Virus record (IMG/VR): IMGVR_UViG_3300021960_008854
Location: 1 to 28,742 of that record
Source: a virus
Reading direction: 5' to 3' (one strand)
Length of the DNA stretch: 28,742 bases
The notes below the pieces were generated by a model, which saw only the letters and a list, made by a program, of their open reading frames with translations, had not been told where the DNA came from and made no database searches. Positions 4,053 to 28,742 of this stretch are shown here, piece after piece. Made by a program: the position numbers and the translations under genes. Numbering within the stretch: the stretch's first letter is position 1; each line of letters opens with the position of its first letter.

Positions 4053-4676
4053 TTATATATACGAAACTTCAATAGTTTCCTTTTTGCGTGTTGGAAAAAC
4101 TAAACCGCTTTTTTCGTGCAATCTACGATTTCTTGTTTCATCTTTAAAACCAATACCTTGCATCATAGCAGGACCGTTTTCTAAACCTAGATAATCTCTA
4201 ATCTCATCTTTTAAGAAACATTGACAGCATCCTGTGTTGTACCCTAATATCGATGCTGTTAGATTTACATAACCACTTGCAATACCTATTGCCGTAGCCC
4301 TGTCTCTCTTAAATACTTCAATATCAGATTCGTCTGCTGTTGCCCATTTTTTAACACCTTTTTGGCTTAAAGAATTTAATGTGAGTTCCTCATATAAAAA
4401 TAAAACATTAGCCAAAACTTGGCTATTAGTTGTAGGCACTAAAATTCCATTTTTATCTGCTGCATGTGTTCCTGGCGAAAGCTCATGAAGTTTTTCAATT
4501 GTTTGTCTGTCTGTAATTACATGCAATTTATAGAATGCAATATTTTGTTTACTTGGACAATTCGTAGCGGCATGTACAAGAATCTCAATATCATCTGCAG
4601 GCACTTCCTGAGATAGATCAAAATTCCTTTGGCAATGTTGGCTTTTAAGAACTGCTTTTTTAATATCTGTATACAA
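4053..4676 (-). CDS. Nitroreductase-like flavoprotein, paralog 2 (TTG start)
   Basis: A 207-aa protein clearly paralogous to the one at 2238. It shares TDIKKAxxxxQHCQRNxDLS at the N-terminus, CPSKQN (40-45), and GIASGYVNLTASILGYNTG (131-149) followed by CCQCF (150-154). The same FMN-dependent reductase or oxidase role is inferred. The only suitable start is TTG at 4676, preceded by AAAGGAGA at good spacing; no ATG occurs upstream of the conserved N-terminus. A late-type motif lies 24 nt upstream, in the gap after the third paralog. The TGCCxCF element is shared only with paralog 1, so these two probably have closer functions. Confidence 0.75.
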   Translation of the reverse strand: MYTDIKKAVLKSQHCQRNFDLSQEVPADDIEILVHAATNCPSKQNIAFYKLHVITDRQTIEKLHELSPGTHAADKNGILVPTTNSQVLANVLFLYEELTLNSLSQKGVKKWATADESDIEVFKRDRATAIGIASGYVNLTASILGYNTGCCQCFLKDEIRDYLGLENGPAMMQGIGFKDETRNRRLHEKSGLVFPTRKKETIEVSYI

Positions 4677-4710: not shown

Positions 4711-5379
4711 TCAAATTACTAATTTACGAGGTATATCTTTAGGAAAAGACGAACTTTTAAATTTTCCATCAGTATGTAATGTGTGGTCATCATATAATGG
4801 ATACCCTACCCCGAGCATTACCTGTAAATGTTTTGGATTTATATTATACGGTTCTAAAAATTCAACAGGAAGGGCACCAAAATCAAAACAACGGCAAAAT
4901 CCTGTACGCATGCCTATTGTATTTGCTGCAATACCAATAGCACTAGCTGCTAGACCAATTTCTAAATTTGTACAACGTATCCAAAATTCATCAGGTGGTG
5001 GATCTCCACGTTCTCTTTTTAATCTGTCTTCTGAAACTCTAGTTTCTGGTTTTATAAAAAAAAGAAAAAGTAAATTGGCATCAGTTTGAGGATTTTGTAT
5101 TCTGCCATTTTCTAGCTCGGCTAATGTGGAGGCAGATAAAAAATGTCTTTCATCGGGACCATTTGTAGCAGAAATAGAAAATTCTTTTATTTTTTTTCTA
5201 TCTTTTACACAAACAATTTCAAAGGAATCTAAATTTTGTTTTGTAGGTGTACTATATCCAACATCTAACAACCAATCAATTATCGAATCATCTACAGTTT
5301 GTGATAAATCAAAATTACGTTGGCAGTGTTGAAAATTTTTTACTGTTTTTAAAAATAATTCCTGTTTATTACTCTGCAT
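4711..5379 (-). CDS. Nitroreductase-like flavoprotein, paralog 3 (diverged)
   Basis: A 222-aa protein, the most diverged of the three. It keeps FQHCQRNFDLS (16-26), TPTKQN (44-49) and IGLAASAIGIAANTIGMRTG (141-160), followed by FCRCF (161-165), where the other two have CCxCF. GVGYP (190-194) matches the family's C-terminal GYP element better than its paralogs do. FMN-dependent redox activity is inferred. An insertion around residues 84-96 and a longer loop at 112-135 account for the extra length. No ribosome-binding site is visible. TATAAATA lies just 5 nt before the ATG, overlapping the upstream stop codon. It is 8 nt downstream of the 2OG oxygenase gene. Confidence 0.72.
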   Translation of the reverse strand: MQSNKQELFLKTVKNFQHCQRNFDLSQTVDDSIIDWLLDVGYSTPTKQNLDSFEIVCVKDRKKIKEFSISATNGPDERHFLSASTLAELENGRIQNPQTDANLLFLFFIKPETRVSEDRLKRERGDPPPDEFWIRCTNLEIGLAASAIGIAANTIGMRTGFCRCFDFGALPVEFLEPYNINPKHLQVMLGVGYPLYDDHTLHTDGKFKSSSFPKDIPRKLVI

Positions 5380-7227: not shown

Positions 7228-8452
7228 CTATACTTGCAAATCCAATTATACTACGTTTGTATTCTGTGCTTACATCTGGCAACAAATTATCTTTTAAAAA
7301 CCAACTACTACTATGCCATCTGCGTGTGTCAAAAATCATAGCTGTTCCTACTTCCCATTTGTATGCACTATGAAACTTCAAATCTGCATATTCTTTATAA
7401 TATTCTGTGCCGTGCGGATTATATTTTAATACTTCATCGTCAAACAAATAATCTTTACGATACTCATATACTTCGTTATTGTCTGCATATCTCATTTCGC
7501 CTTTTCTATATATTAGTTTTCGAGGAATACTAGATACAATATTATAATTTATAGTATACGGTTGTTTACAATTCCAATCTAAAGGAATAATCACTCCTAA
7601 AATAATATGACAATCGTGTGTAATTACTCCGTCTGCCTTAGGTTTCCAACTATTAGGAAAACTTGTGTAATCTGTATGTAATCCTGCAGGTTCTCCACTG
7701 TGGAAATATTCAAAATTCCAATCGTACTTGTGATCCATTAGTTTTGTAAAATAATCTGTCAGTTCTTTTTTTGTTTCAATCGGTACTGAACAAAATTTGT
7801 TAAAATTATTTCTACCTGTAAATTTTACATTATTAGAATCTAAATATTCTAATTGTTCTTGTTTATATTTTTCTACTGGCAAATCTATCGTGTGTGAACC
7901 AAAATTATTATAATATATTTTATAAGCAGCAGATCCGTTTGCTTCGCCTACTTTTATATTACCTAAAGAATTTATAGCATTTAATATTTTTTCACCATAA
8001 GTTTTATGTCTTAGATTTCTTGCTATTATTACACTGTCTTTATTTAAAAAAGTTTTTGCTTTATTGTAAACTTTTTTCCAGTCTATACTTTTTCCTACTA
8101 ACCCCATACTAACAATATCAAATTTATGTTCATAATTCCAGTCTTCAAAATATGCTTGATACATTTCTGCAAAAGGACAATTTTTGGAGAACATATCTTT
8201 TGTGATTACTTCTCCTAAATTATTTTCATCAAAGTAGCCTTTGTTCCAATCAATTTGTAATCGTACTTGCTCTTGTTCCCATGGATCAACTGCAACATAT
8301 TTCCAATCAGGAAATTTTGGCTGTAGGAAAGAAAACAGTCTTCCGGCGGCTGCACCAATCTCTAATATTGTGCCGGTCTTGCCAATGTTACGCATTTGTG
8401 ATGCTACAAGTTCCATTTCATCTATAGATATCCAACCATCGACTACTGTCAC
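7211..8452 (-). CDS. Fusion of SAM methyltransferase and 2OG-Fe(II) oxygenase-like domains
   Basis: A 413-aa two-part protein. Residues 1-180 look like a class I methyltransferase: motif I ILEIGAAAG (29-37), motif II acid D56 in VAVDPW, and FDIVSMGLVG (111-120). Residues 210-413 look like a 2OG-Fe(II) oxygenase: H259-T-D261 (GLHTDYTSF), H380 (RRWHSSSW) and R400 in KRSIIGFAS as the likely 2OG-binding Arg, with GTAMIFDTRRWH before the distal His. The fusion would methylate and hydroxylate a common substrate. The start is GTG at 8452, in a 4-nt overlap with the PLP enzyme gene, with AAGGA about 10 nt before it. The oxygenase call is somewhat firmer than the methyltransferase call. Confidence 0.75.
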   Translation of the reverse strand: MTVVDGWISIDEMELVASQMRNIGKTGTILEIGAAAGRLFSFLQPKFPDWKYVAVDPWEQEQVRLQIDWNKGYFDENNLGEVITKDMFSKNCPFAEMYQAYFEDWNYEHKFDIVSMGLVGKSIDWKKVYNKAKTFLNKDSVIIARNLRHKTYGEKILNAINSLGNIKVGEANGSAAYKIYYNNFGSHTIDLPVEKYKQEQLEYLDSNNVKFTGRNNFNKFCSVPIETKKELTDYFTKLMDHKYDWNFEYFHSGEPAGLHTDYTSFPNSWKPKADGVITHDCHIILGVIIPLDWNCKQPYTINYNIVSSIPRKLIYRKGEMRYADNNEVYEYRKDYLFDDEVLKYNPHGTEYYKEYADLKFHSAYKWEVGTAMIFDTRRWHSSSWFLKDNLLPDVSTEYKRSIIGFASIDVDRL

Positions 8453-9372
8453 TGTCTTTCATTCCTTTCAATTTGATTTAATCCCTTATCAGTACCACGC
8501 TCATCAAATATACCTTCTATTAGAAAACGTAAGGGTGTACGCACACCAAATTGGTGTTTGCCGTTTTCATCGGATAACCATCCTACATGTATACTATTGG
8601 TTTCTTCTAGATCAAAATCATTACAAACTTTTGAATATAATTCACTATAATTTGACCACCAATAATCAGGTCCAAAATGTCTCATTGCTTCAACGCCTAT
8701 CCACATATCACTTACATTTGCATAAGCAAAGTCGTTCATAATACTTATTGGTCCTACAGTTTTTTCTCTAGTATAACGAATACCGATACGTTGACTGCCC
8801 ATTCCTAATGCTTTGCTTAGACTTACACTTACGCTTTGTACAGCAGGATGTGTCACATCAAATTCAAAATTTCTACACTGCCCAAACCAAGCACCGTCAA
8901 TATGAACTGGAATATCATGCTCATCACAGTAATCTAACAATAAATCAAACTTATCGTGATAGCCGGTGGTGATACAACTAGGATAACTTACAATAAAAAC
9001 ATCGCCTTTGATCAATTCTTTGTAATTAGTTATTTGTTTGACTTTAAAATCTGTTAGTCGTCTGTGATACTTGTATTCACCTTTGTACGTAGCTATATTA
9101 GCGCCGTACAGCTGGTGTAGTTCGTCTAACTGATGTGTAGTACCAAGTATAGCATCTCTGCGTGTAAAGGTCTCTAAACCTATGTATTTTACATATTTAT
9201 GTGCATGTATCCAAGAGTCAACTTCTTTAAGAAAAACTTCTGTGTAAGCGTGTGGATCTTTTGGATAATCTTTCATTCTTAAATTTTGTCTAAATTTTGT
9301 AAACTTACTTAGGTACATAGGACGTTGACGTCTAGTGCCTAGCATTTCAAATGTTATATCTTCATACTTCAT
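8449..9372 (-). CDS. PLP-dependent aminotransferase-like enzyme (fold type I, compact)
   Basis: A 307-aa protein. VSYPSCITTG (128-137), IPVHIDGAWFG (154-164, with D159 as the PLP pyridine-N partner) and SVSLSKALGMGSQRIGIRY (182-200, with K187 as the Schiff-base Lys) form the typical fold-type-I series, in correct order and spacing. At 307 residues it is shorter than the usual 370-430: the N-terminal part before the PLP site and the C-terminal small domain both look reduced. It could be an aminotransferase, decarboxylase or lyase; motifs alone do not separate these. It overlaps the upstream radical SAM gene by 11 nt and the downstream fusion gene by 4 nt. Confidence 0.78.
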   Translation of the reverse strand: MKYEDITFEMLGTRRQRPMYLSKFTKFRQNLRMKDYPKDPHAYTEVFLKEVDSWIHAHKYVKYIGLETFTRRDAILGTTHQLDELHQLYGANIATYKGEYKYHRRLTDFKVKQITNYKELIKGDVFIVSYPSCITTGYHDKFDLLLDYCDEHDIPVHIDGAWFGQCRNFEFDVTHPAVQSVSVSLSKALGMGSQRIGIRYTREKTVGPISIMNDFAYANVSDMWIGVEAMRHFGPDYWWSNYSELYSKVCNDFDLEETNSIHVGWLSDENGKHQFGVRTPLRFLIEGIFDERGTDKGLNQIERNERQ

Positions 9373-16521: not shown

Positions 16522-17659
16522 TCATAACTCCTAAATCTATATGATTACCTAAAACATCAAAAAATCTATCTTGCTTCATACTTTTTGGCGCACACAATCC
16601 ACAACCGCAAGTTTGTTTTGGACATACGATTGTAGGTAAACTACCTGATTCCATTTGTTGTCTAAGTTCTTCTATAAGTTTTTTACCTTCACTAATTTTA
16701 CCTATACGTCCTCGTTTGCTATCAAAACGTGCTTGGCAAGTTTGATGGTGGTAAATGCTATCTGTTTGTTGTTCTAAATGTAGGAAGAACCAATTGACAC
16801 TACAATTCCATCCTTTGAATTCTCTAAAGTCTACAAAATTACTTTTGCGTGACTCGCTGCCATTGTGTAATAACATATCTCTGCTACCGCAACATGGACG
16901 TCCAATACTATTTCCTAATTTTTTTGCATTTTTTACAACATCTCCAGCAGCACTACTAGCATATACTGCATCATTTTTTTGTTTCCAATAGTTTTTCATC
17001 CAAGCAAGTTGTTCTTCACTGTACTTGTGTGCAAATGTGGGTTTACTATCTGGCTCTTCGCCTATGACTCTTGGTACAAAGTCTACTTCGTGTGCCTTTA
17101 AGAACTCGCATAATTCTACACATTCGTCAAAATACTCTGCATGGAACATAACATTTACACTAACTGTAAATTGATACATTGATCCTTGATATGCAAACTG
17201 TAAAATTCTGTCTTTTACTTGCTGCTTTAGTTTATCATCGCTTTCGCTGTGGTAACTTACCGTTGCGTGACCAAAATTTTCCATAACTGCTTGGCCCATT
17301 TTTTCACTCATAGCACCATTAGTGGTTAGAGCAAATCCTGCTTCCCAACGGTCGGCATATTTTTCTTCGTATTGCTGTTTTAGATATTGAGCAAACGGAA
17401 TAAAGTGTGGGTTGACTGTAGGTTCGCCACCTGTAAATCCAAAACTAGCTATTTTTGTATTGCGATACTGCATATATAAGTCAGTATATTCATACAAAAA
17501 GTCAACATTGTTTTTTAATTCTTCAAGTGTTGCGTGTTTACTGAAATTATCGTGCCTATGTGCAGGGCAGTATGTGCAATCATAGTTGCATCTACGTCCT
17601 GTATCCCAAGTAACTTGAAAAACTTTGCCTGTTAGCAGGTCAATTGTATCAAAACTCAT
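16505..17659 (-). CDS. Radical SAM enzyme with extended Cys-rich C-terminus
   Basis: A 384-aa protein. CNYDCTYC is near the N-terminus (C24, C28, C31) and GGEP at 77-80. The C-terminal half carries many cysteines: C256-C257 (RPCCGSR), C286 (WNCSVNW), C308 (QTCQARFD), and a tight group C346, C351, C353, C356 (CPKQTCGCGLC). This is enough for one or two auxiliary Fe-S clusters in a SPASM-like domain. N-terminally it resembles the proteins at 2879 and 10602 (xWxxGRxCNYxCxYC). AAAGGA lies 5 nt before the ATG. It overlaps the PP-loop gene upstream by 11 nt, so its start depends on that gene's translation. Confidence 0.93.
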   Translation of the reverse strand: MSFDTIDLLTGKVFQVTWDTGRRCNYDCTYCPAHRHDNFSKHATLEELKNNVDFLYEYTDLYMQYRNTKIASFGFTGGEPTVNPHFIPFAQYLKQQYEEKYADRWEAGFALTTNGAMSEKMGQAVMENFGHATVSYHSESDDKLKQQVKDRILQFAYQGSMYQFTVSVNVMFHAEYFDECVELCEFLKAHEVDFVPRVIGEEPDSKPTFAHKYSEEQLAWMKNYWKQKNDAVYASSAAGDVVKNAKKLGNSIGRPCCGSRDMLLHNGSESRKSNFVDFREFKGWNCSVNWFFLHLEQQTDSIYHHQTCQARFDSKRGRIGKISEGKKLIEELRQQMESGSLPTIVCPKQTCGCGLCAPKSMKQDRFFDVLGNHIDLGVMNDYNR

Positions 17660-18473
17660 TTATTTCCTTTATTACTTGTTGTACTCTATTGTTTGCCCAG
17701 GCACGTTCTTCACACCACCAACATTGATTGCATTCAGGAATGTGCATACCTGCACTATAATCTTTAAAATGTCCGCAGGCATCCTTTATTACATCGTGAT
17801 GATTGATATCGCCCTCACAACTGCGTGTTGTTTCATATAAATCCATTATGTTGTGTATGTAATACTGGGCAACAATCCAATCTTTTTTTACAAATCTAAA
17901 AGGATGCACAAATGTAGCATTTACTTTGCCGCTGTAAAACCATAAATCGGCTAGTTGTCCGTCTTCTGCATCTTTATCTCTATTGGGCATACGATCTTCA
18001 CGTAAATCGTCTGGATTTTTACTTGTAGCATTATACACAGCATCGAGTTTATATTCCCATGCAGCAAACTTGTTAAAACTTCCTACAATAATCTGATCTC
18101 CGCTGCGACCATTTATTACAGGTCCAATTACTCCGTGTTCTAATTCTGGCGGAATATATGTAGTGTATCTATTTTCGATAATATAAGGAAACAAGTCTTT
18201 TAGTTTGTTAAAAACTTGCATGGAAATATGCCCTTGCCACGGTCTTGTTTCCCAACAACGTTGATATGTAATAACATCAACCTTTGTATTTAGATTGTAA
18301 CGCTGAATTAGACTGCATAGTAAATATGTCAACAAAGCACTATCTGCTCCGCCACTGAGATTTATACCAACTCTTTGCCACTTGCTGTCAAACGGAATAG
18401 TAAGATGCGACACAGTATGTAGTAATACAGTATCAGCAATATTTTTATAAAGACTATTATTTACTTCATACAT
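17649..18473 (-). CDS. QueC-like PP-loop ATPase with zinc-type Cys cluster, paralog 1
   Basis: A 274-aa protein. The PP-loop INLSGGADSALLTYLL (37-52) binds ATP for AMP-forming activation. The C-terminal TRSCEGD (C219) with C248-x2-C251-x2-C254 and a following Arg (CNQCWWCEER) matches the zinc site of QueC (7-cyano-7-deazaguanine synthase) in order and form. The central GRSGDQIIVGSFNK region differs from typical QueC and suggests another carboxylate or amide substrate. No QueD, QueE-type or FolE gene accompanies it, so queuosine synthesis is unlikely. It is flanked by radical SAM genes, overlapping them by 8 and 11 nt. A second copy occurs 1.3 kb upstream. Confidence 0.82.
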   Translation of the reverse strand: MYEVNNSLYKNIADTVLLHTVSHLTIPFDSKWQRVGINLSGGADSALLTYLLCSLIQRYNLNTKVDVITYQRCWETRPWQGHISMQVFNKLKDLFPYIIENRYTTYIPPELEHGVIGPVINGRSGDQIIVGSFNKFAAWEYKLDAVYNATSKNPDDLREDRMPNRDKDAEDGQLADLWFYSGKVNATFVHPFRFVKKDWIVAQYYIHNIMDLYETTRSCEGDINHHDVIKDACGHFKDYSAGMHIPECNQCWWCEERAWANNRVQQVIKEINEF

Positions 18474-19794
18474 TATATACTAATTCTCCGTCTACAAACT
18501 TAAAACGTTGTATATGATCATTGAAGTTTTGATTCCATAATGCGTCTGATTTAGGAATATACTTTAACAAGGCTTGATAATCTTTATTTGTAGCTTGGTG
18601 TTTCATAACATATTCTCTTACTTGCTCAATGGCTTGTAATGCACTGGTAATATCAGTCCACCATCCGTATTTTATTTCTTCATCCCAAACATAATTATAC
18701 ATTTCTTTAGTTGTAAGAATATTCTTTCTGCGTTCCTTGTCTATTTTAATTACAGCATTCCTTGCATTTTCTATCTCATTTAGAGTAGGACCTCTAAATT
18801 TTAACATCATTACACTGGGATTTAAATAAGCAGGTGTATAAACTATACTGCAATTTATATAATCTAATTCAAGAGACAAAAATCCACGCATAACATCTTC
18901 AAATTCCATCAACTGATATACACTTGTAGTACATACCAAGTTTATATGACTGTGCTTGTTATCAACTGCTTTGAATTTTTCTATGTTTTCTTTAAGTTTA
19001 TTCCAATCGCCTTGTCTAAAGTATGGATACAAGCGAGGTCCTGCATCTACACTTATCATTATATTACAATATCCAAATTTTTTCAAGAGAAAACTTAGGG
19101 CTTTTGGATCAAAATCTGCATTAAAGTTACTATGGAATATAATTTTTATGTTTTTTGCGTTTGGATGTTCACTTAGTTTTTCAAGTGTGGGCAAAAATTG
19201 CTTCTGATATAATACTTCACCACCTGCAAAATCAATACGCTCTAGGTTTGGAAAATTTTTGTTTAAATCTTCTGCTATTTCTAATGCACGTTTGGTACTA
19301 ATTTGCATTGTAAAATCATCATCCGTAGACGACCTATGCATACGACCAGTAAGTTGATGCAGTTGATATTGATGATCTTCTTCGTCGGGTTCATAACCTT
19401 TGAGCTTTTTCATCCAACCGCTACTAAACACTTGACTACAATGTAAACATGCCATGTTACAACTGTGACTGAAACGTATTTCTACTGTTTTTAATCCTGC
19501 AAAATCTACTTCGCCTGTTTCTGTATTGTAGTATGTGAGATCTGCTTCTTGTTCTTGACGCATACTTGTGCCGCTACGGTCACGCTCTACGTGTTCGCAC
19601 ATATCACAGCCAAAACTCCACTCACCTCGCATCATTTCTAATCTATGTTTGCGGAATAATTCGTTATTGTAAAACTCGCTAGGCAGCCAAGCATCATCTA
19701 GTATTTGCATTTTTTCATGTTGCTGCGGACAACTGGTTACAAAGCCATTTTTAAAGTTCAATCCACCTATTGTGTAGTAGCAAGGTAAACTCAT
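18466..19794 (-). CDS. Radical SAM enzyme, N-terminal Cys class with GGEV motif
   Basis: A 442-aa protein. The radical SAM site is CNMACLHC (C112, C116, C119), but the SAM-contact motif reads FAGGEVLY (189-196), with Val in place of Pro. The N-terminal auxiliary block is weak: C5 (LPCYYTIG), NG at 16-17, a single C22 where relatives have CC, and CDMC at 63-66. SSGWMKKLKG after the site parallels the SSGWIKDYKK of the 466-aa protein at 20629, which also lacks the Pro, so these two are closest relatives. It lies between the two PP-loop genes, overlapping them by 8 and 4 nt. This suggests a dedicated rSAM/ATPase unit. Confidence 0.9.
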   Translation of the reverse strand: MSLPCYYTIGGLNFKNGFVTSCPQQHEKMQILDDAWLPSEFYNNELFRKHRLEMMRGEWSFGCDMCEHVERDRSGTSMRQEQEADLTYYNTETGEVDFAGLKTVEIRFSHSCNMACLHCSQVFSSGWMKKLKGYEPDEEDHQYQLHQLTGRMHRSSTDDDFTMQISTKRALEIAEDLNKNFPNLERIDFAGGEVLYQKQFLPTLEKLSEHPNAKNIKIIFHSNFNADFDPKALSFLLKKFGYCNIMISVDAGPRLYPYFRQGDWNKLKENIEKFKAVDNKHSHINLVCTTSVYQLMEFEDVMRGFLSLELDYINCSIVYTPAYLNPSVMMLKFRGPTLNEIENARNAVIKIDKERRKNILTTKEMYNYVWDEEIKYGWWTDITSALQAIEQVREYVMKHQATNKDYQALLKYIPKSDALWNQNFNDHIQRFKFVDGELVYNV

Positions 19795-20639
19795 AAGTTC
19801 TCCAATAGAAAGCCATTACAATTATCTAATCCCCACTGCTTTTCTTGGCAGAAAAAACAATGTCCGCACTCTGGAGGATATTGTCTATTGTGTCTATATT
19901 CTTCACCAAACTCTGCAACATCACCTTCGCAACTACGTGTAAGTTTTAGCAAATCCCACTGATTGTAATTATGATACTGTGCCATTGTAAAGTTTTTGCG
20001 TAATAAACCAAATGGATTGATAGCAGGACCGCTAATAGCCCAATTCCAATTGTCTTTCATATATTCTTCATTGCGGAATGTAGGTTCGTCTTCAGTAGCG
20101 AACGGAGGATTCATTGTTATACCTGTATAAATCAAATCAATCTTGTATCTGTGCATTACATATTCTTGAAAATCTAATGTACATAACACATCACAGTTTG
20201 CTTCTCTTGGTAATTTTGTAAACAAATGTTCTTTACCCAAACGTGTAAGCGGCACATCTTCAAACTCAGGAGGTAAAAATCCCCACACTTGTTCTTGTAT
20301 AATATCAGGAAAGCGTACCTTTAAATAATTATATACATCTTCTGCCATAGGCGCAAGCCAAGGTTTTTCTTTCCAAAAACGTACAAGTGTCATACAATAA
20401 ATTTTATTTTTGTAATTGTTTTTTTCAATATAGTCGCAGAGCATATATGTTAGTATACTGCTGTCTGCACCACCACTTAAACTTACTAGCAAGTTTTTTG
20501 CATTTGGATCAAAATGCACAGGCAATCCATTTATTCTATGTATCTCAGGATATGGACGAAAAAGCATTTCATAGGTTTTTACAAAATTTTCATCCTTATA
20601 TCCTGCTTCTAAATAATCGAGATAATGTTTATCGTCCAT
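19791..20639 (-). CDS. QueC-like PP-loop ATPase with zinc-type Cys cluster, paralog 2
   Basis: A 282-aa protein from the ATG at 20639; a TTG one codon upstream is not needed, and AGGA lies 8 nt before the ATG. The PP-loop LLVSLSGGADSSILTYML is at 50-67. The C-terminal zinc-type site is C237 (TRSCEGD) plus C258, C261 and C264 (ECGHCFFCQEK). It shares TRSCEGD, the CxxCxxCxE block and the KPWxxP / RPWQGH region with the 274-aa paralog, but the middle thirds differ. The two therefore probably activate different groups or form a heteromeric complex. An adenylation-dependent ligase or nitrile/amide-forming role is inferred from the family. Its start lies inside the end of the radical SAM gene upstream (11-nt overlap). 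Confidence 0.82.
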   Translation of the reverse strand: MDDKHYLDYLEAGYKDENFVKTYEMLFRPYPEIHRINGLPVHFDPNAKNLLVSLSGGADSSILTYMLCDYIEKNNYKNKIYCMTLVRFWKEKPWLAPMAEDVYNYLKVRFPDIIQEQVWGFLPPEFEDVPLTRLGKEHLFTKLPREANCDVLCTLDFQEYVMHRYKIDLIYTGITMNPPFATEDEPTFRNEEYMKDNWNWAISGPAINPFGLLRKNFTMAQYHNYNQWDLLKLTRSCEGDVAEFGEEYRHNRQYPPECGHCFFCQEKQWGLDNCNGFLLENL

Positions 20640-22029
20640 CAAATATGTCCTTCATTTCAGGAAATACTTCTGCAAAATTATTGCCACGTTGTGTATCGCA
20701 CCTGTGTAAAAATTCTTGCATTTCGGGCAAACGTCTGCTCCAGTCCTCGCTTTCCATAAACGATAACATTCCTTTTAAACGTTTAATACCATAAGGTGCA
20801 GCATCAAACATTTCTTTTGTAATTTTACCTTTGTGCCAAACAGGTACACCAAGTTCCCAGTTTTCCTCCCACCAAGGATAAAATTCTTCATACTTTTTAC
20901 GTACTTCTGCTTTGAACCAGTCTGGTAATACTTTTACATTCAAGTGTGGTGGATGATATACAAAGTGATAATTTATTCCACCTGCACCAAATGGCCACAT
21001 ATTGATTTTATTAAAGTTTTGTGTTAGTTTCCATTTGATAAAATCTGGCAAATAATAAATGTTTAATGCTTGTACAGCACAAGCAACTGTAATTTCTACA
21101 TTATTGCTGGTTTCTTTGTCTAATATATGGAAAACTTCTTCTGTACGTTTCCATTTACTAGGATAACGTATATAGTCATTCATTTCGTGTATACTGTCTA
21201 CACTATAATGGAATCTTACAAGTTTAAATTCTTTCCATAAATCAAAGAGATCTTCGCGCCACTCGACTCCATTGGAGTTATATCTAAGTTCAAGGTTTCC
21301 TGCATATCCTTGTCTAATGCATTCTTCAAGGATTTCATAATGTTCCTCGATAATAAGACTTTCGCCACCTGCAAAATAAATCTGCTGCATATTAGGAATT
21401 TGCTCATAAAATTGTTGCCAAAAGATTGGATTTTGTTTATGCCAGTTGTAACTGCTTCCATTTGTACTTCCTTTGTCTTGCCATTGCATTGTTTCTTTAA
21501 GAGACTCATTTTGAACTGCTGGAAAAATCTTTTTATAATCTTTAATCCAGCCTGAACTATCGTGTGGTGAACACATAACACACGCAAGTTGACATTTGGT
21601 ACCAAAACGTAAATCAATATATGCTAGTTGCGGAGGTACTTCGCCATCTTCTGTGGTATTAGCAATCAAGTCATCTACATTTACACGTTGACTCCAATAC
21701 GCTGTTTCCCACATACGCTTACTATTATGTCCAGCTGCTTCTTCTTTGTAACACTTTAAACAACTAGGAGGTTTTTCACCATTCATCATTTGTTTGCGAA
21801 CATTACGCATATAATGACTATTCCAAGCAGTTTGAAAATCTGTAACATTCAAGTTATTTGGTTTGCCATCATCTGTTTTAAGAATACCAACTTGTCCACC
21901 GTGTTCTTTATCGTTAGTTGGTCCAACACTACTTGCGTTGGCAGTGCAGCACACTCTCATACTGCCATCTGGTCTTGTGCTTAAATGCACCCAAGGAAGG
22001 ATGCAAAATGTATCCGATACTTTGCTCAT
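20629..22029 (-). CDS. Radical SAM enzyme, N-terminal Cys/twitch class with GGES motif
   Basis: A 466-aa protein, the longest radical SAM protein here. It has FCILPWVHLSTRPDG (8-22), C27-C28 and CLKC (90-93); then CQLACVMC (C146, C150, C153). The SAM-contact motif is FAGGESLI (219-226), with Ser in place of Pro. The C-terminal half (HPPHLNVKVLP and onward) aligns with the tandem pair at 12089/13428. Together with the protein at 18466 it is one of two that lack the Pro, and both neighbour PP-loop genes. The start follows an 11-nt gap with a weak AGGT element. The next gene, the second PP-loop ATPase, begins within its last codons. Confidence 0.92.
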   Translation of the reverse strand: MSKVSDTFCILPWVHLSTRPDGSMRVCCTANASSVGPTNDKEHGGQVGILKTDDGKPNNLNVTDFQTAWNSHYMRNVRKQMMNGEKPPSCLKCYKEEAAGHNSKRMWETAYWSQRVNVDDLIANTTEDGEVPPQLAYIDLRFGTKCQLACVMCSPHDSSGWIKDYKKIFPAVQNESLKETMQWQDKGSTNGSSYNWHKQNPIFWQQFYEQIPNMQQIYFAGGESLIIEEHYEILEECIRQGYAGNLELRYNSNGVEWREDLFDLWKEFKLVRFHYSVDSIHEMNDYIRYPSKWKRTEEVFHILDKETSNNVEITVACAVQALNIYYLPDFIKWKLTQNFNKINMWPFGAGGINYHFVYHPPHLNVKVLPDWFKAEVRKKYEEFYPWWEENWELGVPVWHKGKITKEMFDAAPYGIKRLKGMLSFMESEDWSRRLPEMQEFLHRCDTQRGNNFAEVFPEMKDIFDGR

Positions 22030-26501: not shown

Positions 26502-27941
26502 ATGGCAGATTTTATACCAGGTGAAGCATATAGATTAGATATCGTTGGTGCAGACGAATCTATAATTGTAGATAGTTGGCAAGGAACTATAAAAGCAAAT
26601 ACTGTATCAGATTTAGGTATGGTACAAGTTGATGTATCTACAGGAAAACTTTATGGACCAATGGTTGGTGATATCGAAGACACCGAAGGTAATATTATAT
26701 TTGACATTACGTCTCAAACATTAAAAGCAGACGTATATGGTAGTGTTTATGATAATAGTGGTGCTGTTAAAATTATCGACGGCATGACTGGTAAGATTAC
26801 TGGTTCTTTAAGTGGTAATGTAATTGATATTGATGGCGCTACAATGGTTGATACTGCAACCAAAACTATTACCGCAAATACTTTTACTGGTGATCTATAC
26901 GGTGATGTTTATGGAAATCTTACAACTGATAGTGTAGTATATGGCACATTTAGCGGTGATTTTAATGGTACTTCATATGGTGAATTTTTTGGTGATAGCA
27001 CAGGTACACACAACGGTGATGTAATAGGTGATGTTACTGGTAATGTTACAGGACAACTTACCGGTAGTGTTACAGGAGAATTACTTGCAGTAAGAGAAGG
27101 TGCAGATGTTCCAGAACGTCTTACAGGATGGAATGAACATTTCCAACAATGGGAATGGTATGGCGGTGTAGGCAATCCATTTCCAGGTGAAGACCACGAT
27201 GTTGCCAGAGGACCAATTATATTAGCTGGTCCAGACAGAACAGAAACTGCACTTAGAGCAAACGTAATTCATTACAACGGAACAGAAATTATCAAATTAC
27301 ACACAGAAATTGATCCAGACTGTGATACTGCACCTGCTACTATTAGAGGAAATTTTGATGGTAACTTTATATACAGTGACAGTAACGGTGCGCAAGATGC
27401 ATTGACTGTTAGTGCGCAAGGAACAGTGTTACACCCCGTAAATGGTGTAGTAACAATTGGTGGCTATATCACAGATGCAATCGATTGTGATGTAAATATT
27501 TTTTCTGATGTAATTACAGTTGAAACTAGTGCGGATGAAGAATTTTTAAATGTAAAAAACTACAATGGTACAGTAAATGCAAAAACTGCTGTGGGAACAG
27601 ATAATCCACTTGCAATTATTTCAGGTGAAGGTTACAACGGAACAGACTTTGTAACTGGTGGCTTATTTGGTATATATGCAGATGCAGCACCAACTGATAC
27701 TCATGTAGAAAGTAAATTTGTTGTTAGCTTACCAAAAGGCAATGACAATCATGATCAAACAAATCCAAGACGTTTGAGCTTCGACGGTGATGGTGTTTTG
27801 ACTGTGCCTGTTTTCAAAGCAAGAGGTACAACTTTTGCAGATAGAGATAGTATGGTTGCAGAAGCAGGTATGATTATTTTCAATACAAGTTCTAGTAAAT
27901 TCCAAGGTTATACTGGAACAACTTGGGTTGACTTACACTAA
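26502..27941 (+). CDS. Fibre-like virion structural protein with glycine repeats
   Basis: A 479-aa protein. Residues 19-125 contain roughly 27-residue repeats with ITxxTLKADVYGSVYD and GSLSGNVIDIDGA-type units. Residues 130-192 follow an xxxG pattern (GDVIGDVTGNVTGQLTG) typical of beta-helical phage fibre or baseplate-attached proteins in T4-like marine phages. The C-terminus ends in a module of the form MIIFNTSSSKFQGYTGTTWV, common at the ends of such fibre proteins. No catalytic motif is seen. Only one Cys pair lies close together (DPDCDT and AIDCDV are separate). A late-type promoter and strong ribosome-binding site precede it. It probably takes part in host attachment and could be a target of the adjacent modification cassette. 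Confidence 0.82.
   Translation: MADFIPGEAYRLDIVGADESIIVDSWQGTIKANTVSDLGMVQVDVSTGKLYGPMVGDIEDTEGNIIFDITSQTLKADVYGSVYDNSGAVKIIDGMTGKITGSLSGNVIDIDGATMVDTATKTITANTFTGDLYGDVYGNLTTDSVVYGTFSGDFNGTSYGEFFGDSTGTHNGDVIGDVTGNVTGQLTGSVTGELLAVREGADVPERLTGWNEHFQQWEWYGGVGNPFPGEDHDVARGPIILAGPDRTETALRANVIHYNGTEIIKLHTEIDPDCDTAPATIRGNFDGNFIYSDSNGAQDALTVSAQGTVLHPVNGVVTIGGYITDAIDCDVNIFSDVITVETSADEEFLNVKNYNGTVNAKTAVGTDNPLAIISGEGYNGTDFVTGGLFGIYADAAPTDTHVESKFVVSLPKGNDNHDQTNPRRLSFDGDGVLTVPVFKARGTTFADRDSMVAEAGMIIFNTSSSKFQGYTGTTWVDLH
26889..27077 (+). repeat. xxxG coding repeats in the fibre gene
   Basis: About fifteen tetrapeptide units with Gly in the fourth position, often followed by Asp, encoded by degenerate 12-nt repeats (commonly GGTGATGTN-type). 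The matching minus-strand frame reads as Pro/Ser/Thr-rich and is not a gene. The regular pattern suggests a narrow beta-solenoid shaft. Confidence 0.7.
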
Positions 27942-27955
27942 ATCTATGTTATAAT
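27928..27955 (+). promoter_or_regulatory. Sigma-70-type promoter for the ANL ligase gene
   Basis: TTGACT (27928-27933), 16-nt spacer, TATAAT (27950-27955). The -35 lies inside the last codons of the fibre gene. Transcription would start near 27962, leaving a leader of about 25 nt with TGGAGG (27971-27976). This gives the ligase early expression separate from the late fibre gene and uses the same TTGACT hexamer as the two cassette promoters. Confidence 0.65.
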
Positions 27956-27986
27956 GAAACAATAGAAATTTGGAGGTTCTTTCAGT

Positions 27987-28742
27987 ATGATCTACATTGA
28001 TGGCGTAGAATATCTTAAAAGCAACAATGAACACGTTAAAACATCAGTAATAAACTATCTTGAAAACTGGAACATTACTGTTAGTACAAGCGGAACAACA
28101 GGCAACCCAAAAACATATCAACACAGTGCAAAACTAATGAGACAAGTTGCAGAATACAATGCAGAATATTTCATGCTTGACTCTAATAGTAGTATGATGG
28201 CATTGTACAATCCTAGAGGTATTGGATTTACAAGTATGAGTTTGTATCCTTGTCACGTTGCAAACTGCGATACATTTATTGAAACTACAGTTGCAAATCT
28301 ACCAGATCGAATCCGTGAAGTACAGCCAACAAATATGTTGATACTTCCTAATGTTTGGAAAACTTGGCATAGACACAAGAAATGGAAAAACTTGGATTTA
28401 AGTTGTATGAAGCAAATGCAGGTAGGCAGTGATATTACTCCTACAGGACTAATGGAAGATTTACGAGCTCGTGGCGCACAACAAGTAAACACAGGTTATG
28501 GAAGTACAGAAGTACCACCTATCATTATGAGTACAGAACGCCAAGACGTGTACAATTTTAATGATATCAATCCAAATATTGATTTTAAATTTGTTGAGCA
28601 CGATGACGGTACAACTGAATTTTACTGCAAATACAAAGAACAAACAGAATGGTGGGACAGCGGCGATCTTGTTGAATTTAACAGTGCAGATGAATTTAGA
28701 TTGTCTGGAAGAAGATACAATGCATTTAAAATGGAAAATTGC
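27987..28742 (+). CDS. AMP-forming (ANL superfamily) ligase, 5' part
   Basis: 252 codons are open to the right edge. STSGTTGNPK (33-42) is the phosphate-binding loop, NTGYGSTEVPP (168-178) matches the A5 motif, WWDSGDLVEF (222-231) holds the A7 Asp, and RLSGRRYNAFKMENC (238-252) fits the A8 hinge Arg/Lys region. These enzymes activate a carboxylate as acyl-AMP for transfer to CoA, a carrier or an amine. The core is very compact: the P-loop starts at residue 33, whereas family members usually have well over 100 residues before it. TGGAGG lies 10 nt before the ATG. The small lid domain is probably beyond the window. It is on the opposite strand from the cassette but could supply an activated acid. 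Confidence 0.82.
   Translation, partial: MIYIDGVEYLKSNNEHVKTSVINYLENWNITVSTSGTTGNPKTYQHSAKLMRQVAEYNAEYFMLDSNSSMMALYNPRGIGFTSMSLYPCHVANCDTFIETTVANLPDRIREVQPTNMLILPNVWKTWHRHKKWKNLDLSCMKQMQVGSDITPTGLMEDLRARGAQQVNTGYGSTEVPPIIMSTERQDVYNFNDINPNIDFKFVEHDDGTTEFYCKYKEQTEWWDSGDLVEFNSADEFRLSGRRYNAFKMENC

Follow-up and report, generated by a model that had tools for sequence, protein, structure and literature searches.

The compact ANL-superfamily ligase gene that runs off the end of the window, a virus record of 28,742 bases representing a linear fragment, has as its stable partners a ~200-aa protein of GNAT type and a flavin-dependent halogenase, rather than the radical-SAM cassette; the proposal that it serves that cassette, made in the original prediction, mostly fails. 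The analysis documents conserved motifs, operon layouts, predicted folds, patterns of co-occurrence and the transfer of the ligase gene between phage lineages.

The ligase ORF (27987-28742, plus strand) comprises the N-terminal 252 codons of an adenylating enzyme found in marine phages and is open at the window end. It matches the Pfam AMP-binding model PF00501 (E 1.2e-13, 51.1 bits against a cut-off of 29.9), and since this match begins at profile position 170 of 384, almost half of the model is unmatched before the P-loop. The A3-type P-loop STSGTTGNPK (28083-28112, residues 33-42) contains a core, S-G-T-T-G at S35-G39, that shows no variation across 20 aligned relatives. In the same 20-row alignment the A5-type motif YGSTE (28497-28511, residues 171-175) has YGSSE as its sole variant (L056/L057), and the A7-type SGD (28659-28667, residues 225-227), the A8-type hinge GR (28707-28712, residues 241-242) and the A10-type lid lysine K321 (in DDNLRKI), which completes the GR...K pattern, are all invariant; in ANL enzymes the last two belong to the hinge and to a mobile C-terminal lid whose lysine is catalytic. 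The motif positions predicted earlier were accurate for the P-loop, A7 and A8, while A5 lies at residue 171, not 168. The full-length protein has 329 aa in the nearest relatives and 319-353 aa across others, 329-333 aa (up to 353) being the summary figure for complete copies, and the window copy is short of ~77 C-terminal residues, including the lid, which is cut by the window end. The complete relatives possess a short lid with its A10-type lysine, so that the gene does not have the lid-less ending raised as a concern in the original prediction, and the description of the enzyme as a compact ANL ligase holds. The ORF is therefore real, and its complete relatives retain every ANL catalytic motif. 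Such relatives were found in viral contigs, 27 of them by a single-sequence search and 40 loci, many overlapping, by an alignment search. Against named phages, tblastn returned no close relative of the ligase, with a distant form matching at just 18-23% in five unannotated faecal phage records, and the one genome scanned for a cellular homologue yielded just one match, a remote one (24% over 94 residues). Models of defence systems matched neither the ligase nor its partner proteins, apart from one weak match of the halogenase (E 0.0017).

The predicted structure of the full-length ligase (pLDDT 80.3) gave an ANL match spanning all 329 residues, with a VIA Z of 19.6 and an rmsd of 7.0 over 303 aligned residues for MenE, and with PltF as the top Foldseek match (E 4.2e-16). 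The ANL fold is shared with MenE (5bus/5x8f), PltF (7thq), feruloyl-CoA synthetase (8wev), McbA and Cfl (7a9j). As many ANL subfamilies tie as fold matches, the fold names no substrate, and a one-mechanism reading drawn from the PltF match was dropped, the top ANL matches being tied. Motifs A3, A5, A7 and A8 and the A10-type lysine are common to the phage ligase and known ANL enzymes; the latter, however, are ~475-540 aa long and just 11-18% identical to it, and the phage protein differs from ANL acyl/aryl-CoA ligases and A domains in having only ~32 residues ahead of the P-loop together with the short lid. Among ANL proteins that retain the full set of catalytic motifs, it is very small. Another compact ANL family, of similar length, does exist, the DVU_1553 family AMP-dependent CoA ligases (NF045666, 331 positions), so that small size by itself has precedent, but the phage ligase scores 21.6 bits (26.8 for L064) against a curated cut-off of 300 bits, and has even less ahead of its P-loop than this family, where the P-loop stands at about profile position 93. 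Its best NCBIfam match was a long-chain-fatty-acid CoA ligase model, far under the cut-off of that model.

A clue to the class of substrate comes from Gly80, which in one alignment pairs with the Asp of SFDLS in DltA (7vhv), a residue that we take to anchor the substrate amine. This column is Gly or Ala in 20/20 aligned ligases, and the Asp that anchors the alpha-amino group in NRPS-type amino-acid adenylation is accordingly absent from all of them. Because Gly or Ala replaces the amine-anchoring Asp, the substrate is probably a carboxylic acid other than an alpha-amino acid. A search for the carrier domain PF00550 found none in 25 records at E up to 1, these records being fragments and a host carrier being possible.

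To define the partners of the ligase, 87 contigs were compared by tblastn with reference proteins, 74 of them ligase-positive and 13 negative; many are near copies of one another, so the counts below overstate independence. Two contexts were seen. In 30 contigs the surroundings are T4-like, in the order uvsW, gp47, gp46, gp45, gp44, halogenase, ligase and c18 (a protein of ~200 aa), followed by glutaredoxin, regA, hsp20 and gp43, with a desaturase first in some; T4 gene names were assigned by eye from the sequence, and for gp46 and gp43 also by PHROGs. The halogenase is immediately upstream of the ligase, and c18 immediately downstream, in 27/27 of these contigs where each is visible, and the halogenase/ligase/c18 junctions are mostly overlaps of a few bases. 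The other 44 contigs, window included, have the cassette context. Here a tail-fibre-like gene precedes the ligase wherever it can be seen (42/42); in the window it encodes 479 aa (26502-27941, plus strand), its name being tentative given weak PHROG matches only. The ligase is followed directly by c7, also of ~200 aa, in 33 of 40 visible cases, and by the halogenase and then c7 in the other 7 of 40. The c7 gene overlaps the ligase in cassette phages and would lie just past the window end, judging by relatives. Some loci are incomplete: in L079 halogenase-c7 is present but the contig is cut on the ligase side, and L124 and L135 are cut before the ligase. In L127 and L128 the ligase gene is uninterrupted, at ~52% identity by tblastn.

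The halogenase linked to the ligase is a clear member of its family. It matches PF04820 at E 7.6e-93 and 312 bits (cut-off 21), as does that of the rearranged locus L064 at 5e-78, and it has GxGxxG as well as Lys and Glu columns of catalytic type that are invariant in 8/8 aligned sequences; the WxWxIP motif is degenerate (GWNFII, GWIFKI). The motif list used for this comparison came from PMC8407142. PF04820 was searched in sets of 28, 15, 20 and 13 records; it is found nowhere in the window record and is often absent from ligase-positive cassette records, which are mostly fragments. Likewise, the operon is without halogenase in 33/40 cassette contigs, most of them from fragmentary records. The gp46 protein, present in 6/49 cassette records, was used to gauge the reach of each record. 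Among the records that reach gp46, 4/4 ligase-positive ones hold one halogenase and 0/2 ligase-negative ones do (G048, G051), a comparison of small number that was devised after the first cases had been seen. The halogenase adjoins gp46 in G005 (cut by the contig end), G058 and G061, and is in the ligase operon in G054. The cassette-phage halogenases of L143, L148 and L149 adjoin gp46 as in cyanophage S-B64, so that this position recurs in distant phages.

Across marine phages flavin-dependent halogenases are widespread, and they also occur apart from the ligase. PF04820-type halogenases without this ligase were matched in 74 named phage records, and a halogenase thus does not need the ligase. 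The phage halogenases such as VirX1 (cyanophage Syn10) belong to the same PF04820 / PHROG 2928 tryptophan-halogenase family and share the conserved Lys/Glu columns, but the ligase-linked query does not exceed 34% identity to any halogenase of the named phages listed, and no ligase is annotated next to the halogenases of Syn10 (which has two adjacent genes), HTVC008M and S-B64. In Syn10 the two adjacent halogenase-family genes occupy L067:4443-7548, and the second, annotated as hypothetical, has a length of 530 aa that fits VirX1. PMC10452541 reports halogenase genes in 20/153 cyanophage genomes, and PMC8407142 presents VirX1 as the first viral halogenase and as accepting phenols and other aromatics. 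The literature within our scope, which took in few subscription papers, held no description of this ligase beside a phage halogenase. To our knowledge, no natural substrate has been assigned to a viral flavin-dependent halogenase.

For the third partner, a structural model of c7 (pLDDT 81.9), built from a shallow alignment containing rows of both c7 and c18, has the GNAT strand order. Foldseek placed BjaI (E 3.9e-5) and PaiA on top with other GNATs, and FeeM later (E 3.6e-4); superposition on PA3270 gave a VIA Z of 12.4 and an rmsd of 3.4 over 155 aligned residues. These matches are tied across many acceptor types: BjaI, which uses acyl-CoA according to PDB titles, and FeeM are only 10-12% identical to c7, and other GNATs score equally. 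There was no Pfam or NCBIfam GNAT match, nor a match to any named acetyltransferase family, and neither c7 nor c18 found a relative among named phages. We describe c7 as a predicted GNAT-type acyltransferase. A match of the c7 profile to TAL effectors was set aside as an artefact of TAL repeats, no stretch passing alone. A comparison of the c7 and c18 profiles gave a probability of 0.3% and so lends no support to homology; the two proteins nevertheless share R-x3-R, (S/T)-x-H-like and K/R-x3-Q-like stretches in the same order, as well as position and length, and this order and position suggest that they may be homologous.

The history of the ligase joins the two contexts. A tree built from 34 ligases places the window group (8 rows) within the T4-like clade with starred support and the other cassette-phage ligases on a branch apart, while the neighbours of the window-type ligase on both sides belong to the cassette lineage. 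Since it is nested in the T4-like clade, the ligase has moved between phage lineages, and the simplest reading is that a resident ligase was swapped in place, beside c7, for one from a T4-like phage. The lineages themselves have different relatives: the closest match to gp43 from the T4-like group is in Phage C48C1 (54%), filed under Kyanoviridae, followed by cyanophages (46% and below), and the cassette-group gp46 most resembles that of PA5oct-type Pseudomonas phages (49%).

Taken together, these partners suggest a module composed of the ligase, the overlapping GNAT-type N-acyltransferase and the flavin-dependent halogenase, the last sharing the operon in many relatives and lying elsewhere in the genome in others. 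The reading that we favour, at about even odds, is that the ligase activates a carboxylic acid for transfer by the GNAT protein onto an amine, with the halogenase acting on the same product. In such a pathway, the ligase would use ATP to convert the acid to an acyl-adenylate and then, presumably, to an acyl-CoA; the GNAT protein would move the acyl group onto an amine; and the halogenase would chlorinate, brominate or iodinate the acyl part or the amine part, in the product or in a precursor. We infer both the order of these reactions and the sharing of one product by three enzymes. Pathways of the PltF-PltL-PltA type likewise pair an ANL enzyme with a flavin-dependent halogenase, which there modifies a substrate held on a carrier protein; in the phage module, by contrast, no carrier protein was found and the GNAT protein takes the third place. 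More tentatively, it is possible, if rather unlikely, that two distant marine phage lineages exchange this three-enzyme module, and that it makes a halogenated N-acyl compound during infection. If true, at least one clade of the viral halogenases, so far orphan, would have its native pathway in this module. The conserved set of partners makes the viral-halogenase question concrete, in that it asks for a particular acid, amine and halogenated product.

The link to the cassette has to be weighed against this three-enzyme pathway. The window island (2238-26431, minus strand) is rich in radical-SAM proteins, with 12 N_Twi_rSAM matches in the record. We consider it improbable that the ligase feeds an activated acid to the product of the cassette, with the GNAT protein as a bridge that acylates this product. 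N_Twi_rSAM is over its cut-off in 15/20 cassette-context records of one set and 2/2 of another, but in 0/21 T4-like ligase records (0/8 and 0/13), including one of 146,762 bp (G036), a count that leaves out nine contigs (L119, L120, L127, L128 and L130-L134) and in which 4/21 records have partial matches below the cut-off. Conversely, the ligase model has no match in 10/10 cassette records of the type with c7 only, one of them 136,876 bp long (G051), having matched 14/14 other records in the same search. The ligase is thus found in phages without the cassette, an outcome that the original prediction had itself named as counting against it, and the window-type ligase came from T4-like phages. 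On the other side, wherever both flanks are visible in cassette phages the ligase lies within the island, between the tail-fibre-like gene and rSAMc8. Moreover, in 10 ligase-negative contigs the island still includes c7, on the opposite strand relative to the tail-fibre-like gene, and in 9 of these c7 adjoins rSAMc8 on the same strand, the remaining one (L116) being cut there. A weaker link to the cassette remains, therefore, through the GNAT gene, which stays with it even when the ligase is missing.

The promoter has also been read as tying the ligase to the cassette. As predicted originally, the ligase has a sigma-70-type promoter of its own, TTGACT-16-TATAAT (27928-27955, plus strand), with an extended -10 (TGTTATAAT) and a -35 that overlaps the end of the tail-fibre-like gene; a ribosome-binding site, GGAGG (27972-27976, plus strand), lies 10 bases ahead of the start codon. 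The window has 4 promoter-like sites with at least 11/12 matches, where shuffled sequences lead one to expect 1.95 +/- 1.45, so that a single site is weak evidence. TTGACT/C with TATAAT or TATAGT is, however, kept in 18/18 distinct upstream regions of cassette-type ligase units, immediately before the ligase in 12/18 and before a small ORF of 72-83 aa preceding it in 6/18. In most of the 18 regions the -35 overlaps the final codons of the upstream gene, but L004 and L023 have theirs beyond the upstream stop codon, where coding constraint is no explanation. The T4-like copies have no such promoter within 75 bases before their start and mostly overlap the upstream gene. The hexamers of the ligase promoter match those of the divergent cassette promoter at 26466-26438, a point in favour of a shared role with the cassette.

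Several features of these regions can be noted in their own right. The promoter-like site at 26466-26438 (minus strand), with hexamers TTGACT/TATAAT identical to those of the ligase promoter, ends only 6 bases short of 26431, where the next gene is listed to start; that gene would then have a leaderless transcript or a wrongly chosen start codon. The small protein of 72-83 aa encoded between promoter and ligase (L023:3860-4111, L077:3223-3441, L081, L094, L095 and L099) is hydrophobic. Within the window island there are three nitroreductase-like paralogues (2238-2855, 4053-4676 and 4711-5379; one of the three was tested), a decarboxylase-like protein under the Pfam cut-off (8449-9372) and two related ATP-pyrophosphatase-like proteins, tentatively named (17649-18473 and 19791-20642). 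Elsewhere, L008:2527-4794 is a 755-aa ORF with two tandem radical-SAM twitch units.

The surroundings in the cassette phages bring to mind a role at the cell or virion surface. There, ligase and GNAT protein would N-acylate surface glycans of the virion or host, at an amino sugar or amino acid, altering receptor binding or blocking superinfection, with the halogenase acting separately. The window-type pair does sit among tail-fibre-like genes and two sugar-transferase-like genes, named by eye, and according to PMC7029224 pelagimyophages have a host-recognition island that includes glycosyltransferases. Nevertheless, the two putative glycosyltransferases are without a Pfam match, the T4-like ligase is located in a replication operon, flanked by clamp-loader genes and regA, with no glycan gene seen beside it, and the linkage to the halogenase is left unexplained. 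Such a function has a low probability in our estimation.

A more specific form of acyl chemistry would yield a halogenated N-acyl aromatic amino acid or amine lipid, in which the ligase would activate a fatty acid, a desaturase desaturate it, the GNAT protein couple it to an aromatic amine and the halogenase mark the ring. The long-chain-fatty-acid model noted above as the best NCBIfam match of the ligase, the resemblance in fold of the c7 model to FeeM and BjaI, and the phenols and other aromatics taken by VirX1 (PMC8407142) are all consistent with this, as is a PF00487 fatty-acid desaturase gene that lies beside the ligase/c18 pair in a subset of T4-like loci. Yet this desaturase is missing from many T4-like loci and none was seen in cassette loci, the ligase folds name no substrate, the GNAT matches are tied, and residue-level support for an aromatic acceptor is absent, which leaves the lipid product quite improbable. 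Finally, modification of a nucleic acid by the GNAT protein (a phage DNA base or a tRNA, as with Mom- or AtaT-type enzymes), the ligase supplying the acyl group, is highly improbable: the tRNA-acetylating GNATs AtaT and TacT are among the c7 fold matches (Z about 10) and the T4-like ligase copies are in a replication operon, but the c7 matches are tied over many acceptor types, no named acetyltransferase family matches in sequence and the halogenase would have no role.

Returning to the pathway of acid activation, N-acylation and halogenation, a set of shortened ligases bears on how far it depends on adenylation. Ligases of ~215 aa are found in L119:2910-3557, in L130:38-679 and at the start of L120, in frame beside c18, and that of L119 comes after a halogenase. 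The L119 and L130 proteins are without the P-loop, carry K or I at the position of the A5 Glu and D at that of the SGD Gly, and end before the lid; the L120 ligase is cut off ahead of the P-loop region. Identity between L119 and L130 is 64%, synonymous change is close to saturation and dN/dS is about 0.14 (a rough estimate), which suggests that a non-catalytic form of the ligase is apparently under purifying selection. These remnants may thus be a non-catalytic ANL protein, and since some T4-like loci keep a ligase without P-loop and lid, adenylation appears not to be always needed, an argument against it as the sole role of the ligase. A selected form of this kind would suit the study of non-catalytic ANL proteins. 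In a further contig, L146:3592-17400 (minus strand, record G012) is a single ORF of 4602 aa, perhaps encoding a giant tail or baseplate protein.
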